The position numbers and the translations under genes were made by a program. The notes beneath the pieces were generated by a model. The model was not told where the DNA came from, did not search any database, and was given only the letters and a program-made list of their open reading frames with translations. From Vulcanimicrobiota bacterium (GTDB taxonomy: Bacteria > Vulcanimicrobiota > Xenobia > Xenobiales > JADMJV01): 64,000 nt of DNA. Location: positions 1-64,000 of the forward strand of contig JAHBVR010000024.1 in assembly GCA_019637395.1 (NCBI GenBank), given 5' to 3'. Shown in pieces: positions 9,070-62,119 of the stretch (the stretch's first letter is position 1; the number at the start of each line of letters is the position of its first letter).

Positions 9070-10377
9070 GTGGCCAGAAACCGAGCCGAAGAGGAGCTGC
9101 AGGAACTTCACGTTTTGCGCGTGGGGGAGGTGTTCGAGCCGTTTGCGCCCTGGCGCCGGAACGAACAGGGTAAGCAGGTCTACATCAAGCTGTCTCGCAA
9201 CGAGGAGGTTTCTTACCTCTACGTGGGCTCTCAGTTAAGTGTGCGGGCTGAGTTGCAACAGGCTCTGATGCGGCTGGTCAATGACGGCTGGATGGTCGAA
9301 GGGGAGGTCGTCGTCCAATTCGACGGCCGCAGCGAGCCCGGCACCGATCCTTATGTCTACCGTGAGCCTTTGATGCTCGAGTTGGGTAAGGCTTTATTGC
9401 CTCTGGTCGATCCTCAAAACGGCTCCCCGCTGGTGCCCAAGGTGGAGCAGATTCGTGAAGAGGTCGCCCGCGAGGTCGGCCTGGTCATTCCGCCGTTGCG
9501 GATTTCCGACAATCTGCAATTGGAAAATCAGTATTTGCTGCGCATCAAAGATGCCCCGGTAGCGGTGGGCGAAGTCTACCTGGATCGCATGATGGTGCTG
9601 GGAAATCTGGATCTTTTGGGACAATTGGAGGGCGGCATCACCCAGGACCCGGTGCACCGCCTGCCGGCCAAGTGGATTCAGGGTGAACTCAAGGAAAAGG
9701 CGGAGAATTTGGGCTGTCCCGTGCTCGGTCCGCTGGCCGTCATGGTGGCCCACTTGAAGGGCCTGATTATGGGCGCCTGTCCAGAGTTGCTGGGTTTGCA
9801 GGAAACTTACGATCTCATTCATCGACTGCGCAGCTCGCACCCGGTAGTGGTCGAGGAATTCCTCAATGACCGCCGCCTGTTGCGGCGGGTTCGCAAAGTT
9901 CTTCAGGGTTTGCTGGAGCAGCGCGTGGCCATTCGCGATCTGGTGACCATTATGGAGATCTGTGGCGACCATGTCGACCTTCTTGATAACGTCGAAGAGG
10001 TGACCGAGCGCTGCCGGGTGGCTCTGGCCCGCCAGATCTGCGCTTCGGTGGTAGACCGCGAAGGCGGCCTGCGGGTGCTGGCGCTGGGCCCGGTGGCCGA
10101 GCAGGCCATCCGCGAAAGCTTGCTGAGCGGCAAAAATTGGAGTCATGACCAGGTGGAGCAATTGGAGCGAGCGGTGCGCAAGGCGCGCGACGAACACGAT
10201 CATCCACCGGTTTTGATCACCGATCCTCCGACCCGGCGGGTAGTCCAGCGTTGGCTCCAGCATGCGCTACCGGATTTGACCATTTTGTCGACCGAAGAAT
10301 TGGTGGCCGGTTTCAAGGTGGAGGTGGCCGCCATGGTGGAGCTGCACTCCGCTCCCACTCCCTCGGGAGTGGCCTGA
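9070..10377 (+). CDS. Soluble protein homologous to the FlhA/SctV cytoplasmic domain
   Basis: In flagella and type III secretion, FlhA/SctV forms the nonameric export gate: an N-terminal membrane domain plus a cytoplasmic domain that docks chaperones and substrates. This 435-aa protein matches only the cytoplasmic part. Visible matches are LGKALLPLVDPQNG (about 105-118), EVGLVIPPLRISDNLQL (135-151), DPVHRLPAKWI (193-203), VMVAHLKGLI (224-233), LLEQRVAIRDLVTIME (281-296) and the terminal PTRRVVQRWLQHALPDL and LSTEELV. Residues 1-95 are a distinct N-terminal domain with no membrane helix. No flagellar or secretion genes are nearby. It begins with GTG right after the lipoprotein stop. Function unknown; a scaffold or decoy role is only inference. 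Confidence 0.75.
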   Translation: MARNRAEEELQELHVLRVGEVFEPFAPWRRNEQGKQVYIKLSRNEEVSYLYVGSQLSVRAELQQALMRLVNDGWMVEGEVVVQFDGRSEPGTDPYVYREPLMLELGKALLPLVDPQNGSPLVPKVEQIREEVAREVGLVIPPLRISDNLQLENQYLLRIKDAPVAVGEVYLDRMMVLGNLDLLGQLEGGITQDPVHRLPAKWIQGELKEKAENLGCPVLGPLAVMVAHLKGLIMGACPELLGLQETYDLIHRLRSSHPVVVEEFLNDRRLLRRVRKVLQGLLEQRVAIRDLVTIMEICGDHVDLLDNVEEVTERCRVALARQICASVVDREGGLRVLALGPVAEQAIRESLLSGKNWSHDQVEQLERAVRKARDEHDHPPVLITDPPTRRVVQRWLQHALPDLTILSTEELVAGFKVEVAAMVELHSAPTPSGVA

Positions 10378-56543: not shown

Positions 56544-57888
56544 TCTGATCATCGTGGGCGGCGGCCTGACCGGGCTGACGGCCGCCTACCGCGCTCAGCA
56601 ACGCGGCTGGAAGTTCTTGCTGCTGGAAGCCTCCGAGCGTCTGGGCGGCTCGCTGGAAACGCTGCACTCCGACGGCCTGCTCCAGGAACTGGGCGCGGAA
56701 TCGATGGTCACGGCCAAACCGTGGGGTAAGGATCTCATTCTCGAGTTGGGACTGGGTGACCAACTGGTCAGCCCTCAACCTGAGTTTCACAAAACTCTGA
56801 TCGTGCGTGGCGGCCAACTGGTGCCCATTCCGGAGGGTCTGCGCTTGCTGGCGCCCAGTCAATGGATTCCTTTCCTACGCTCGCCGGCCGTGAGCTGGTT
56901 GGGCAAGCTGCGCATGGGTCTGGAGTTTTTTGTCAAGCCGCGCCAGGATGTTCGCGATGAATCACTGGCTTCTTTCGTGCGCCGGCGCCTGGGCAAAGAG
57001 GCTCTGGAGCGCATTGCCCAGCCGATGGTGGCGGGCATCTACACGGCTGATCCGGAAACGCTCAGTATGCGGGCTACCTTGCCGCAGTTTCTCGAGTACG
57101 AGCGCAAGTACGGCAGTGTCTGCCGGGGCTTGCTGCTCAGTCCGGAGGCGCGCGCCAGCCGGGGTCCACGTTATCATTTATTCAACAGCCTCAAAGGCGG
57201 CTTCGGCCAGTTGATTCAGGCCCTGCGCGCCCGCTTGCCGGACGAAAGCATCCGCTGCGGACGGCCGGTAGGGCACATTCGACCGCTCGAGGACGGCTGG
57301 CAGGTGGACGGGGAAACGGCTCCGCGCTTGTTGCTGGCCGCACCCACCTACGCCATGGCCGACCTGCTGCGCCCTTTCGACGCCCCGGCCGCCAGTTTGC
57401 TGCAGAAGCAGGAGTACCTTTCTTCGGCCACCGTGAATCTTGGTTATCCACTGACCGCCGCCGACGCCGCCACCCGAGGCTACGGTTTTGTCGTGCCGGC
57501 GGTGGAGGGTCGCGACATTTTGGCCTGCACTTTCAGTCACCGCAAATATCCCGAGCGCACTCCTCCCGACATGGCCTTGCTGCGCACTTACGTAGGGGGA
57601 GCCTCTCGGCCCGAGGCCATGGCCTGGAACGATGAGGAGATGATTGCCCGCAGCCACATGGAGCTGTCGCGTTTGCTGAAGATTGGAGAGCCTCCCATAA
57701 GCGCCGTGGTCAAGCGCTATGTACGCGCCATGCCGCTCTATCGGGTGGGTCACCTGGAGTGGTTGAGCACGCTTGAGGATTGCCTGGCGCGTTGGCCGGG
57801 CCTGGGATGGGCCGGCAACGCTTACCGCGGGGTAGGCATCCCCGACTGCGTCCGGTCGGCTAATGAGGCGGTAGCACGCCTGGGCTGA
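56527..57888 (+). CDS. hemG: Oxygen-dependent protoporphyrinogen oxidase (HemG/HemY type)
   Basis: FAD-dependent oxidation in late haem synthesis. 453 aa from GTG at 56527, overlapping hemE by 17 nt. The FAD-binding motif is DLIIVGGGLTGLTAAYRAQQRG, followed by FLLLEASERLGGSLETLHSDGLLQELGAESM. ESLASFVRRRLGKEALERIAQPMVAGIYTADPETLSMRA is the central family region, and LGWAGNAYRGVGIPDCVRSANEAV the C-terminal FAD site. The earlier enzyme HemN/HemF and ferrochelatase are not in the window. In some bacteria, homologues oxidise coproporphyrinogen instead. Confidence 0.92.
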   Translation: MSHSYDLIIVGGGLTGLTAAYRAQQRGWKFLLLEASERLGGSLETLHSDGLLQELGAESMVTAKPWGKDLILELGLGDQLVSPQPEFHKTLIVRGGQLVPIPEGLRLLAPSQWIPFLRSPAVSWLGKLRMGLEFFVKPRQDVRDESLASFVRRRLGKEALERIAQPMVAGIYTADPETLSMRATLPQFLEYERKYGSVCRGLLLSPEARASRGPRYHLFNSLKGGFGQLIQALRARLPDESIRCGRPVGHIRPLEDGWQVDGETAPRLLLAAPTYAMADLLRPFDAPAASLLQKQEYLSSATVNLGYPLTAADAATRGYGFVVPAVEGRDILACTFSHRKYPERTPPDMALLRTYVGGASRPEAMAWNDEEMIARSHMELSRLLKIGEPPISAVVKRYVRAMPLYRVGHLEWLSTLEDCLARWPGLGWAGNAYRGVGIPDCVRSANEAVARLG

Positions 57889-58507
57889 AGGCCGAGGGGC
57901 AGAGGCTGGCCAGGCAGCAATCCGGGCAACGCGGCTTCTTGGCCAGGCAGACGTAGCGTCCGTGCAGAAGCAAACGCGAGGACCCCTGGCTCCAGTCTTT
58001 CTTGGGAAGCAGCTTTTGCAGGTCCTTCTCGACTTCCTCGGCCTCCTGCTTAGCGGTCAGTTGCAGACGCCGGGCCACCCGGCCGACGTGCGTGTCCACG
58101 ATGATACCGGGTTTGCCGAAGCATTCCCCCAAGATCAGATTGGCGGTTTTGCGGCCCACTCCGGGCAGGCTGGTGAGTTCTTCCATCGTCTCAGGCACTG
58201 TGGAGCGAAAGCGTTCCACCAGGTGGCGGCTGCAGGCCTGGATGGATTTGGCCTTGTTGCGGTAGAAGCCGGTAGGCCGGACCACTTCTTCGACTTCCTC
58301 GGGTAGGGCCTGGGCCAGCGCGGTCGGGTCGGGCCAGCGTTGAAAAAGCAGGGGAGTGACCTGGTTGACGCGCTCGTCGGTGCACTGGGCGGAGAGAATG
58401 GTGGCGATAACCAGTTCAAAGGGACTGGAATGCTTCAGCTCGACGGCCGGATTGGGAATGCTGGCCCGTAGCCGTTTGAGTATTTCGCTGGCTCGGTTTT
58501 TACTCAC
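57860..58507 (-). CDS. nth: Endonuclease III
   Basis: DNA glycosylase/AP lyase for oxidised pyrimidines. 215 aa. SPFELVIATILSAQCTDERVNQVTPLLF, the helix-hairpin-helix LPGVGRKTANLIL (catalytic Lys), VDTHVGRVARRL (catalytic Asp) and the 4Fe-4S ligands C-x6-C-x2-C-x5-C in the CLAKKPRCPDC region are all present. The 3' end overlaps the convergent protoporphyrinogen oxidase gene by 29 nt. It starts 3 nt after the FlhA_C-like gene, so they share an mRNA. Confidence 0.96.
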   Translation of the reverse strand: MSKNRASEILKRLRASIPNPAVELKHSSPFELVIATILSAQCTDERVNQVTPLLFQRWPDPTALAQALPEEVEEVVRPTGFYRNKAKSIQACSRHLVERFRSTVPETMEELTSLPGVGRKTANLILGECFGKPGIIVDTHVGRVARRLQLTAKQEAEEVEKDLQKLLPKKDWSQGSSRLLLHGRYVCLAKKPRCPDCCLASLCPSAFSPGVLPPH

Positions 58508-58510
58508 CCG

Positions 58511-59626
58511 CTAGTTCGGCCAGCGGTTGGTAGGATAGGGGAGGTGCGAGTTGGCGGCGCCACTGAATTTTAGCATGGAGTCGAGCGTATCCAGTCGGAT
58601 TTCCGGGGGTTTGTCCTCGAGGGCCAGCACCGTGACCTGCTGACTACCCGAGCGCATCAGTTCGGCCCAGGCACGCCGGTAGCGCGAGGCCACCACGAAG
58701 GTGGGGAAGGCCTGTTGCTCACGGAAAGCGGCCAGACGCGAGTAACCCAGGTGTAGAGCCTGCTGCTTCTGGCCTTCGCCGCCCACCGCCAGAGCCGCCT
58801 GAGTCTCATCGATTTTCCACACCAGCAGTGTTTCCCGGCCGTCGGCGGCCTTCTGGTAAAGCACCGGGGCCAGACGGCGGCGCACAAAGTCGAGCAGCAC
58901 CAGGGGAGCGGTTTTGACCGGTTCGTGCAGGGCTAATTCCAGCAGCACCGCGTCCAGATCGCGAATGGAGACGCGCTCGCGCAAAAGCATGCCCAGGATG
59001 GAACGTAGCTTGGCCTCGGTCAAGCCGGCCTGGCGGGCCTGGCGCCAGGCTTCCTGGGATTCGAGCAAGAGCGCGTCCAGGGGAGAGCGGGCGAAGATCT
59101 CCTGGGCGTGAATGCGGGCTACTTCGGTCAGGTGGGTGGCGATGACGGCTTTGGGCGTAAAGCGCATGTGCAGATCGCTGGGCTCCACCACCTCCTCGTC
59201 GGGAATCCAGATCGAGGGCATGGAGTAAACCGGATCATTGACTGAGGTGCCGGTGGGATAGCCTTGACGCAACGCGGTCAGATGAGGGCCATGAGCGAAA
59301 AAGAGCGTCTGGCGGGGAAAAACCTGGCCGCGCGCGGCCAGATATTCGCCCACCGTAATTTCATAGGAGTTCGCCGGTAGAGTCACTTTGTTGCGGAAGC
59401 GCACCGAAGGTAGATAAAAACCTAGCTCCATGTAGATGTGGCGGCGAATGGACTTGCAAGACTCCAGCAACGCCGCGTTCTCACCTTCGACCAAAGGGAT
59501 CAAGGCGTTGCCCAGCAGAACTTCCACGGTGGAGAGTTTGAGGGGTCCGAACTGTTTGTGAATCTCGTCGGGGTCTTCGGCCAGGGGGTTGACGGCCAGT
59601 TCTTCGGGTTCGCCTGCTTGGTCCAT
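58511..59626 (-). CDS. Second soluble FlhA/SctV cytoplasmic-domain-like protein
   Basis: 371 aa, no membrane helices. Matches to the FlhA cytoplasmic domain in order: LLGNALIPLVEGEN (37-50), YMELGFYLPSVRFRNKV (65-81), NDPVYSMPSIWIPDEEV (130-146), VIATHLTEVARIHAQEIFA (161-179), LRERVSIRDLDAVLLELAL (215-233). From about 255 on it departs from FlhA (ETLLVWKIDETQAALAVGG) and ends in a flexible tail. Unlike the 435-aa relative at 9070, the N-terminal extra domain is short and acidic. It is upstream of nth in a two-gene unit. No other export-apparatus gene is present. Function unknown. Confidence 0.72.
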   Translation of the reverse strand: MDQAGEPEELAVNPLAEDPDEIHKQFGPLKLSTVEVLLGNALIPLVEGENAALLESCKSIRRHIYMELGFYLPSVRFRNKVTLPANSYEITVGEYLAARGQVFPRQTLFFAHGPHLTALRQGYPTGTSVNDPVYSMPSIWIPDEEVVEPSDLHMRFTPKAVIATHLTEVARIHAQEIFARSPLDALLLESQEAWRQARQAGLTEAKLRSILGMLLRERVSIRDLDAVLLELALHEPVKTAPLVLLDFVRRRLAPVLYQKAADGRETLLVWKIDETQAALAVGGEGQKQQALHLGYSRLAAFREQQAFPTFVVASRYRRAWAELMRSGSQQVTVLALEDKPPEIRLDTLDSMLKFSGAANSHLPYPTNRWPN

Positions 59627-59876
59627 CCGTCTATGTTAGCAGATAAAGCGAAGTTGGAGAATGCCGGTGGGGATGATACGCAGGGCCTGGAGTTTAGCCT
59701 TTGAGAATCTTTCAGGCCGTGAGCTGGCCGAAGCATACCGTGTGGCGTGGTTCTTCAGGACGGCGCCTGGGGTTCGGGACGAGGTCAAGAAGTCCCTGAG
59801 TCCCAGTACGCCCTTCCCTACACCCTGAGGTCCGTCTGCGGTGTAATGGACTCCAATGAAATTTCTGGAGGACATT

Positions 59877-60248
59877 ATGAAACGCTGGATGATGCTGGGC
59901 TTCGCGGCCTTTACCTTGATGGGGGTGGCTCAGGCCTTGCCCGGGCGAGACGGAATGAACAGCCCGCTGTGGCCGAGCACCTGGGCCCGCTACGACACCA
60001 ATGGCAATGGTAAACTGGAAGACGGCGAGTGGAAGATTCTCCAGGAAAAGGAAAACGAAGGTGACCTTCACCTCTGGAGCCGCTTTGATCTCGACAAAGA
60101 CGGCCAGGTTGAGGACAACGAGATCGCCGACGCTCGTTTGGACTATGAACGCTGGGCTAAAAAGTCGCAGGCTGCCTACGATAGGAATGGTGACGGTGAA
60201 CTCGACGACCGCGAGCGCCTCGAATGGCGCCGTAGCTGTCCCCAATAA
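59877..60248 (+). CDS. Exported EF-hand calcium-binding protein
   Basis: 123 aa from the ATG at 59877, with TGGAGG upstream. A signal peptide (MMLGFAAFTLMGVAQA) is followed by three canonical EF-hand loops: DTNGNGKLEDGE, DLDKDGQVEDNE and DRNGDGELDDRE, each with Asp/Asn at 1, 3, 5 and Glu at 12. Such small proteins bind Ca2+ outside the cytoplasm; a partner is not evident. The 250-nt gap upstream (59627-59876) holds no gene I can see. Confidence 0.9.
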   Translation: MKRWMMLGFAAFTLMGVAQALPGRDGMNSPLWPSTWARYDTNGNGKLEDGEWKILQEKENEGDLHLWSRFDLDKDGQVEDNEIADARLDYERWAKKSQAAYDRNGDGELDDRERLEWRRSCPQ

Positions 60249-60264
60249 AGAGGCGTGGGTCTGC

Positions 60265-60627
60265 CTAACTCCAGGCGGGCGCAGATACGAAGAAGCTGAG
60301 ACCCCAATTCACCAAACCCAACACCAGTGCGCCCATGAAGCCGGAGAACCATCCGTCCACTTCAAAGTCGGACACCATCTTGCCGGCCAGCCAGAAACAG
60401 AATCCCAGAATGACTACGTAGAACAGACCCAAAGTGACCAGTAGGAAAGGAAGGCTGAAAAAGACGACCAGCGGTTTGATGAAGAATGCCACAAATCCGA
60501 GTGCCAGGGCCCCCCACATGGCGCCGGAAAACTTGTGGATACGTACTCCGGGAACGATGGCGGCGGTTACCCAGAGGGCTACGGCGTTGAGAACCCAGGT
60601 GATGAGAAAAGCGACGACTGGATGCAT
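60265..60627 (-). CDS. Phage holin family IV-like membrane protein
   Basis: 120 aa with four hydrophobic helices, matching the widespread chromosomal family annotated as mycobacterial-type phage holin superfamily IV: VAFLITWVLNAVALWVTAAIVPGV, GALALGFVAFFIKPLVVFFSLPFLLVTLGLFYVVI, KMVSDFEVDGWFSGFMGALVLGLVNWGLSFF. Despite the name these are usually not phage lysis proteins, and no phage genes are near. Function unknown. Confidence 0.85.
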   Translation of the reverse strand: MHPVVAFLITWVLNAVALWVTAAIVPGVRIHKFSGAMWGALALGFVAFFIKPLVVFFSLPFLLVTLGLFYVVILGFCFWLAGKMVSDFEVDGWFSGFMGALVLGLVNWGLSFFVSAPAWS

Positions 60628-61500: not shown

Positions 61501-61965
61501 TTAGTCGTGCTTGACGGGGGAGGCGCAGCCGCCTTTGCCTTTACAGGAGTTCTTGCCGGCGCAACCGTTGTCGCCGGATTTGCAGCCTCCTTGAGCTTTA
61601 CAGCCATTCTTGCCCTTGCAGTCGTGCTTGGCGGTGGCGCAGCCGCCTTTGCCTTTGCAAGCGTTTTTGCCGGCGCAGGTGTTGTCGGCGGATTTGCAGC
61701 CGCCCTTGCCTTTACACGAGTTCAGGCCTTTACATGCGTGCAGGTCTTGGGATTCGGCTTTACAACTGGCTTTGGCCTGGCAGCCGTCCTTGCCCTGACA
61801 GCCGGCCTTGTCCATGGCCAGATAAATACCGCTGGGATGCAGGTCTACACCCGTCAAAGTGTTCTCGGCTCCAGCCGTCTGGACTGCCTGGGCCGACTGA
61901 GCCCCGCCCAAAAGAAGTCCGGCCATCACCGCAGTCATCAGGTGATTGGTGCTCTTCTTACTCAT
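61501..61965 (-). CDS. Bufferin-like (BufA2-type) Cys-rich periplasmic protein
   Basis: 154 aa from the ATG at 61965 (GGAG upstream). A signal peptide (LMTAVMAGLLLGGAQSAQA) is followed by a mature part with repeated Cys units: CKGKGGCK, CAGKNACKGKGGC, CKGKNGCKAQGGC, CAGKNSCKGKGGC. This pattern matches BufA2-type bufferins, ribosomally made peptides that BufB/BufC modify into copper-binding thiooxazoles. Neither bufB (DUF692) nor bufC (DUF2063) is adjacent, so whether it is modified is open. It could bind metal through thiols without modification. Confidence 0.75.
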   Translation of the reverse strand: MSKKSTNHLMTAVMAGLLLGGAQSAQAVQTAGAENTLTGVDLHPSGIYLAMDKAGCQGKDGCQAKASCKAESQDLHACKGLNSCKGKGGCKSADNTCAGKNACKGKGGCATAKHDCKGKNGCKAQGGCKSGDNGCAGKNSCKGKGGCASPVKHD

Positions 61966-62119
61966 AGTTCGGTAATCTCCATTCAAATCTTGAGAACTGA
62001 CCCAGGCTGGGTAGCCTGGGCCAGTTGCTTCTCCTAAAGCAAATTTACTATCCTGCCTGGCCGCCACCGAAACGCAAACCGTCCGGGGGAGATGTGAACG
62101 AGTTGTAAATGAATTGTTG

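Follow-up and report, generated by a model that had tools for sequence, protein, structure and literature searches.

We found that a 371-aa protein encoded on the minus strand at positions 58511..59626 of the window, the whole 64,000-nucleotide stretch of Vulcanimicrobiota DNA analysed here, is almost certainly, in identity as well as in origin, a complete cytoplasmic domain of FlhA that has no membrane anchor. In flagellar export, FlhA serves as the gate protein, and its cytoplasmic domain (FlhA_C) is the docking platform. From its sequence, and with a probability that we put at about 0.4, the 371-aa protein may serve the clients of a filament-less export system as a soluble docking receptor or a regulator.

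The gene starts with ATG and forms an intact ORF in which all five strings quoted in the earlier note are present, so that the gene described there is real. In Pfam, the product matches FHIPEP (E 1.6e-39) over profile positions 322-654 of 657, which represent the cytoplasmic half of FlhA; the membrane half (profile 1 to ~320) is missing, and the protein is thus not a full FlhA. It scores 133 bits against the NCBIfam FlhA model, for which the full-length cut-off is 772, and 50 bits against SctV, and its top PDB sequence matches are also FlhA. The comparison with FlhA and SctV proposed earlier identifies it as FlhA-like, and an origin from SctV was rejected on these sequence scores. An AlphaFold2 model computed from a 60-row alignment (pLDDT 84.6, pTM 0.81) covers domains D1-D4, the only longer stretches with pLDDT <50 being residues 1-15, 28-30 and 353-371. 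The best Foldseek matches of this model in the PDB are FlhA cytoplasmic domains (6ch2, 6ch1, 7ctn and 3a5i; E ~1e-20 to 1e-19; 2e-20 for Salmonella FlhA_C), and TM values of ~0.73-0.84 against 6ch2 and 3a5i indicate the same four-domain cytoplasmic fold.

The FlhA_C-like core D1-D4 (residues 31-352; 58571..59536, minus strand), recognized by Pfam, AlphaFold2 and Foldseek, is flanked by an acidic N-terminal segment at the position of the FlhA linker (residues 1-30; 59537..59626, minus strand) and by a C-terminal tail (residues 353-371; 58514..58570, minus strand), both modelled with low confidence. Among orthologs, only 1 of 30 positions varies in the former and 1 of 19 in the latter. This low variability may be suggestive, yet a significant over-conservation of the two tails was rejected (2/49 variable positions vs 39/322 in the core; p 0.14, not significant). 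D4 is the most eroded domain, with 12 of 47 lineage-invariant positions retained. The different C-terminus claimed previously is therefore correct as far as this erosion goes, but D4 can still be aligned and is predicted to fold. No effector domain is fused to the protein, and a sigma-70 promoter scan of window positions 57700-60300 found none.

We located orthologs at the same locus in three relatives (G001, G002 and G004), with 92-95% amino acid identity and, together with the window's own genome, an intact frame of equal length in all four species. The gene is under strong purifying selection, tighter than the adjoining nth gene: dN/dS amounts to 0.038, 0.041 and 0.042 in the three ortholog comparisons, as against 0.086, 0.122 and 0.095 for nth and ~0.026 for hemE. 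G003 and G005, both of which keep FlhA1, yielded no copy of the gene; all compared genomes except the window's own are drafts of differing quality, and this absence is provisional. At 3 bp downstream lies nth itself (endonuclease III; Pfam HhH-GPD; 57860..58507, minus strand). The association with nth, to which the earlier note drew attention, recurs in G004 and G002 but not in G001, where another ORF separates the two genes, and G003 nth has a different neighbourhood with no such gene alongside; as a functional clue, an nth operon was thus rejected as weak. The neighbourhood further comprises hemY, hemE and a gene for an EF-hand protein, none of them an export gene. A protein with many repeated Cys/Lys/Gly motifs (CKGKxGCK) is encoded at 61501-62067 (minus strand) of the window, and its gene adjoins the 371-aa gene in G001 and G002 too. 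A divergent ORF with weak alpha/beta-hydrolase matches is found upstream of the 371-aa orthologs (L010:6986-7966 and L011:6962-7966); its place is occupied by a short ORF in G004 and by none in the window.

The window's other orphan FlhA_C protein (435 aa; 9070..10377, plus strand; Pfam FHIPEP E 1.8e-68) matches profile positions 328-654, so that the two window proteins share one domain, as had been claimed. The N-terminus of the 371-aa protein is indeed short, with ~30 residues before the domain vs ~95 in the 9070..10377 protein. The latter belongs to a different orthogroup, distinguished by a conserved N-terminal domain of ~95 aa. Aligned over 197 aa, the two proteins show 25% identity (E 6e-11), and same-clade relatives of the 435-aa protein were detected in G001, G002, G003, G005, G010, G016 and G140.

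The suggestion that two such proteins point to a family understated their number, although the family itself exists, is conserved in relatives and occupies varied gene neighbourhoods. When further copies were sought in the window's genome (G000), the PF00771 search detected 17 genes: two full FlhAs (712 and ~705 aa), one 519-aa protein made of the FlhA membrane half and a reduced C half, and 14 orphans that lack the FHIPEP membrane half, other membrane segments being recognized by eye in several of them. The 371-aa protein, with its FHIPEP C half and no FHIPEP membrane half, belongs to the proposed orphan family. FlhA_C is joined to FliG_N in an 865-aa protein (Pfam FliG_N E 1.8e-9) and in a 617-aa one (E 8e-5, just below the Pfam cut-off), to the DNA-binding HTH_3 domain (Pfam) in a 380-aa protein (G000 C5:67748-68890; L070:5749-6891), a version that four genomes from two genera share, and to C2H2-finger-like segments, with finger scores under the Pfam cut-off, in proteins of 784 and 237 aa. 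In turn, a tandem FlhA_C pair of 355 + 359 aa (G000 C2:299825-301973; L067:5826-7974) carries Sec-type signal peptides, recognized by eye in three species for the 359-aa type and in two for the 355-aa type, a third ORF of the latter type having an uncertain start. A gene for an FlgE/F/G-like protein (G000 C35:270719-273955; L075) is positioned 1.2 kb from the 237-aa orphan with the weak C2H2-finger-like segment.

For most of the 14 orphans, a reciprocal best ortholog is present in at least one sister genome. In the set compared, G001 alone has that of the 237-aa protein and G002 alone that of the 865-aa protein, and none was found for the 563-aa orphan of contig C32. We assessed the term lineage-specific, used in the earlier note, within the host phylum. 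The counts of this survey are lower bounds, at most ~7 candidates being scored per genome: at least several C-half matches each are present in G001, G002, G003, G005, G010, G016, G019 and G140, C-terminal-only or re-fused matches occur in several families of the phylum, and many small genomes have at least one or two PF00771 matches, mostly full-length. G010 encodes a protein of 1941 aa in which TPR repeats occur together with three FlhA_C-like stretches (C9; L094:6489-12314). None of the open-licence PMC papers that our literature searches returned describes such an orphan family, as judged by title and abstract. FlhA_C seems to be a general-purpose docking module in this bacterium, mostly outside secretion gene clusters.

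The parent export system is represented in the window's genome by a flagellar-type cluster with FlhA1 (G000 C34:96353-113845; L150, L062), which also contains genes for FlgC-like, FliF, FliG, FliH, FliI, FliJ, transglycosylase, FliK-like, FlgE/F/G-like, FliM, FliO, FliP, FliR, FlhB and FliQ proteins; export gate, ATPase, MS-ring and rotor genes are thus all present. Flagellin_N, FliS and MotB_plug were undetected in G000, G010 and G140 with Pfam profiles, which could miss divergent versions, and all three were found by Pfam in G001, G003 and G005. It follows that the orphan family persists without a detectable filament, filament chaperone or stator.

In a maximum-likelihood tree of 61 rows, the 38 orphans that it covered all group with FlhA1/FlhA2 in one clade (bootstrap/SH-aLRT 100/99). 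Neither the flagellin-linked FlhA3 of G001, G002, G003 and G005 nor any other sampled FlhA of the phylum belongs to this clade. The tree did not take in the most divergent orphans, which a quick tree of 84 rows also places with FlhA1/FlhA2, with unsure joins. By these sequence comparisons, the well-aligned orphans share an FlhA1/FlhA2 origin. Derivation of the 371-aa protein from the motility-flagellum FlhA3 was rejected (AU p 0.011 for the grouping). Neither outcome named earlier as speaking against the family was encountered. The AU test marginally rejected a single clade of all orphans (p 0.039) and did not reject a clade uniting the two window proteins (p 0.12), which costs 9.4 log units. 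The position of the 371-aa protein varies by tree, either with a G015 protein or with the FliG_N/membrane group, and its identity to the FlhAs of the genus is 28-34%.

In Salmonella FlhA, chaperone-substrate complexes are bound by a D1/D2 dimple formed by L438, I440, P442, D456, F459, L461, V482, V487 and T490 (PMC5932034, PMC10965912). Using the residue list from these reports (sites 438, 440, 442, 456, 459, 461, 482, 487 and 490 in E. coli numbering), we placed the equivalents in the 371-aa protein at L108, F110, H112, D131, Y134, M136, F156, V161 and T164 (59135..59305, minus strand). The conserved dimple (E. coli D456, F459, L461, T490 and others) is present, and 7 of the 9 residues are identical to those of the lineage's own FlhA1/FlhA2, the changed sites being I440 and P442. 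Against a background of 79 of 191 lineage-invariant positions kept (41%), this suggests a weak enrichment at the nine sites (p 0.03, uncorrected, for one of twelve rows tested). Elsewhere, retention ranges from 9/9 in the 359-aa signal-peptide protein to 2/9 in the 9070..10377 protein and 1/9 in the 355-aa partner. The claim that the family broke away from secretion very probably applies to some relatives, namely the HTH-fused and Sec-signal proteins, but is less well supported for the 371-aa protein, with its seven pocket residues kept.

A docking receptor is favoured for the 371-aa protein by its C-half-only FHIPEP match and FlhA_C fold, its FlhA-like scores, its low dN/dS, the 7/9 dimple sites kept as in the FlhA of the lineage (2/9 in the 9070..10377 protein), the clade shared with FlhA1/FlhA2 and the C34 cluster in a genome with no flagellin, FliS or MotB detected. 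FlhA_C would have been duplicated away from the gate and then reused as a soluble docking module, whose D1/D2 dimple would bind export clients, their chaperones or a mimic peptide in the cytosol; next to the gate, the protein could then serve as a carrier, as a reserve or as a regulator of timing, with both nearly invariant, probably disordered tails as putative partner contact sites. Counted against docking are the weakness of the dimple enrichment, the position of the gene near no export gene, the changes at dimple sites I440 and P442 and the eroded D4. In addition, G003 and G005 keep FlhA1 without the gene, which would make it dispensable for the FlhA1 system. The same absence, together with the lack of export genes nearby and the conservation across species of HTH_3 + FlhA_C and signal-peptide + FlhA_C relatives, would suit a protein that left secretion entirely and now binds partners or provides a scaffold in some unrelated process, a role that is probable for the HTH-fused and the Sec-exported relatives. 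We regard this as somewhat unlikely, since the cargo dimple is preferentially kept and the protein has no fused effector domain.

FlhA_C natively assembles as nonameric rings (PMC8213127), and with its fold kept and both FlhA1 and FlhA2 in the genome, the 371-aa protein could also be an accessory subunit of the FlhA1/FlhA2 cytoplasmic ring, entering it in a putative mixed nonamer or capping it, and would then alter the selectivity of the gate or block the gate. Yet only 28-34% identity to the genus FlhAs and a different N-terminal linker-contact segment render such a subunit improbable. A role in regulating flagellin/FliS export of the motility flagellum, conceivable in view of the binding of FliS/FliT-substrate complexes by Salmonella FlhA_C (PMC5932034), deserves very little credence: the window's genome keeps the gene although flagellin, FliS and MotB are undetected there, and the grouping with flagellin-linked FlhA3 is rejected. 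The missing membrane half and the eroded D4 might also be taken for signs of a functionless, decaying FlhA fragment, but the frame is intact and equally long in all four genomes, and this, with dN/dS ~0.04, reduces the chance of such decay to nearly nil and led us to reject both a pseudogene and a loss of the membrane half in a single strain.

The docking reading preferred for the 371-aa protein would belong to a wider picture, possible if rather doubtful, in which the lineage took a type III export gate, that of a filament-less and stator-less flagellar-type secretion system, and made its docking domain a general adaptor, represented by at least a dozen soluble, membrane-bound, Sec-exported, DNA-binding and FliG-fused proteins, the 371-aa one being the bare cytosolic reader of the gate's client signals. 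FlhA_C occurs 14 times without the gate in one genome and is strongly selected where measured, and the orphan architectures would fit roles in gene regulation, in the cell envelope and at the rotor. This would show a part of a secretion machine turning into an interaction domain that can be used again elsewhere. It also points to an uncultured lineage whose flagellar-type export system has neither filament nor stator detectable; the HTH fusion may further suggest the idea of the gate domain as a sensor of export clients.

Compared with known systems, the 371-aa protein shares with FlhA_C (TIGR01398 and the C-terminal half of PF00771) the fold, the order of D1-D4 and most dimple residues. In contrast to FlhA_C, it has no membrane domain, carries another linker segment and lacks export-gene neighbours, and its identity to most solved FlhA_C domains is 22-24%. 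The superfamily fold is also common to the cytoplasmic domain of the SctV/LcrD gate, to which the match is weaker and from which the protein differs by its flagellar-type dimple. Finally, its likeness to the fused and Sec-signal orphans of the same genome lies in a common FlhA1/FlhA2 origin, for the well-aligned ones, whereas unlike them it is a bare domain with conserved tails.
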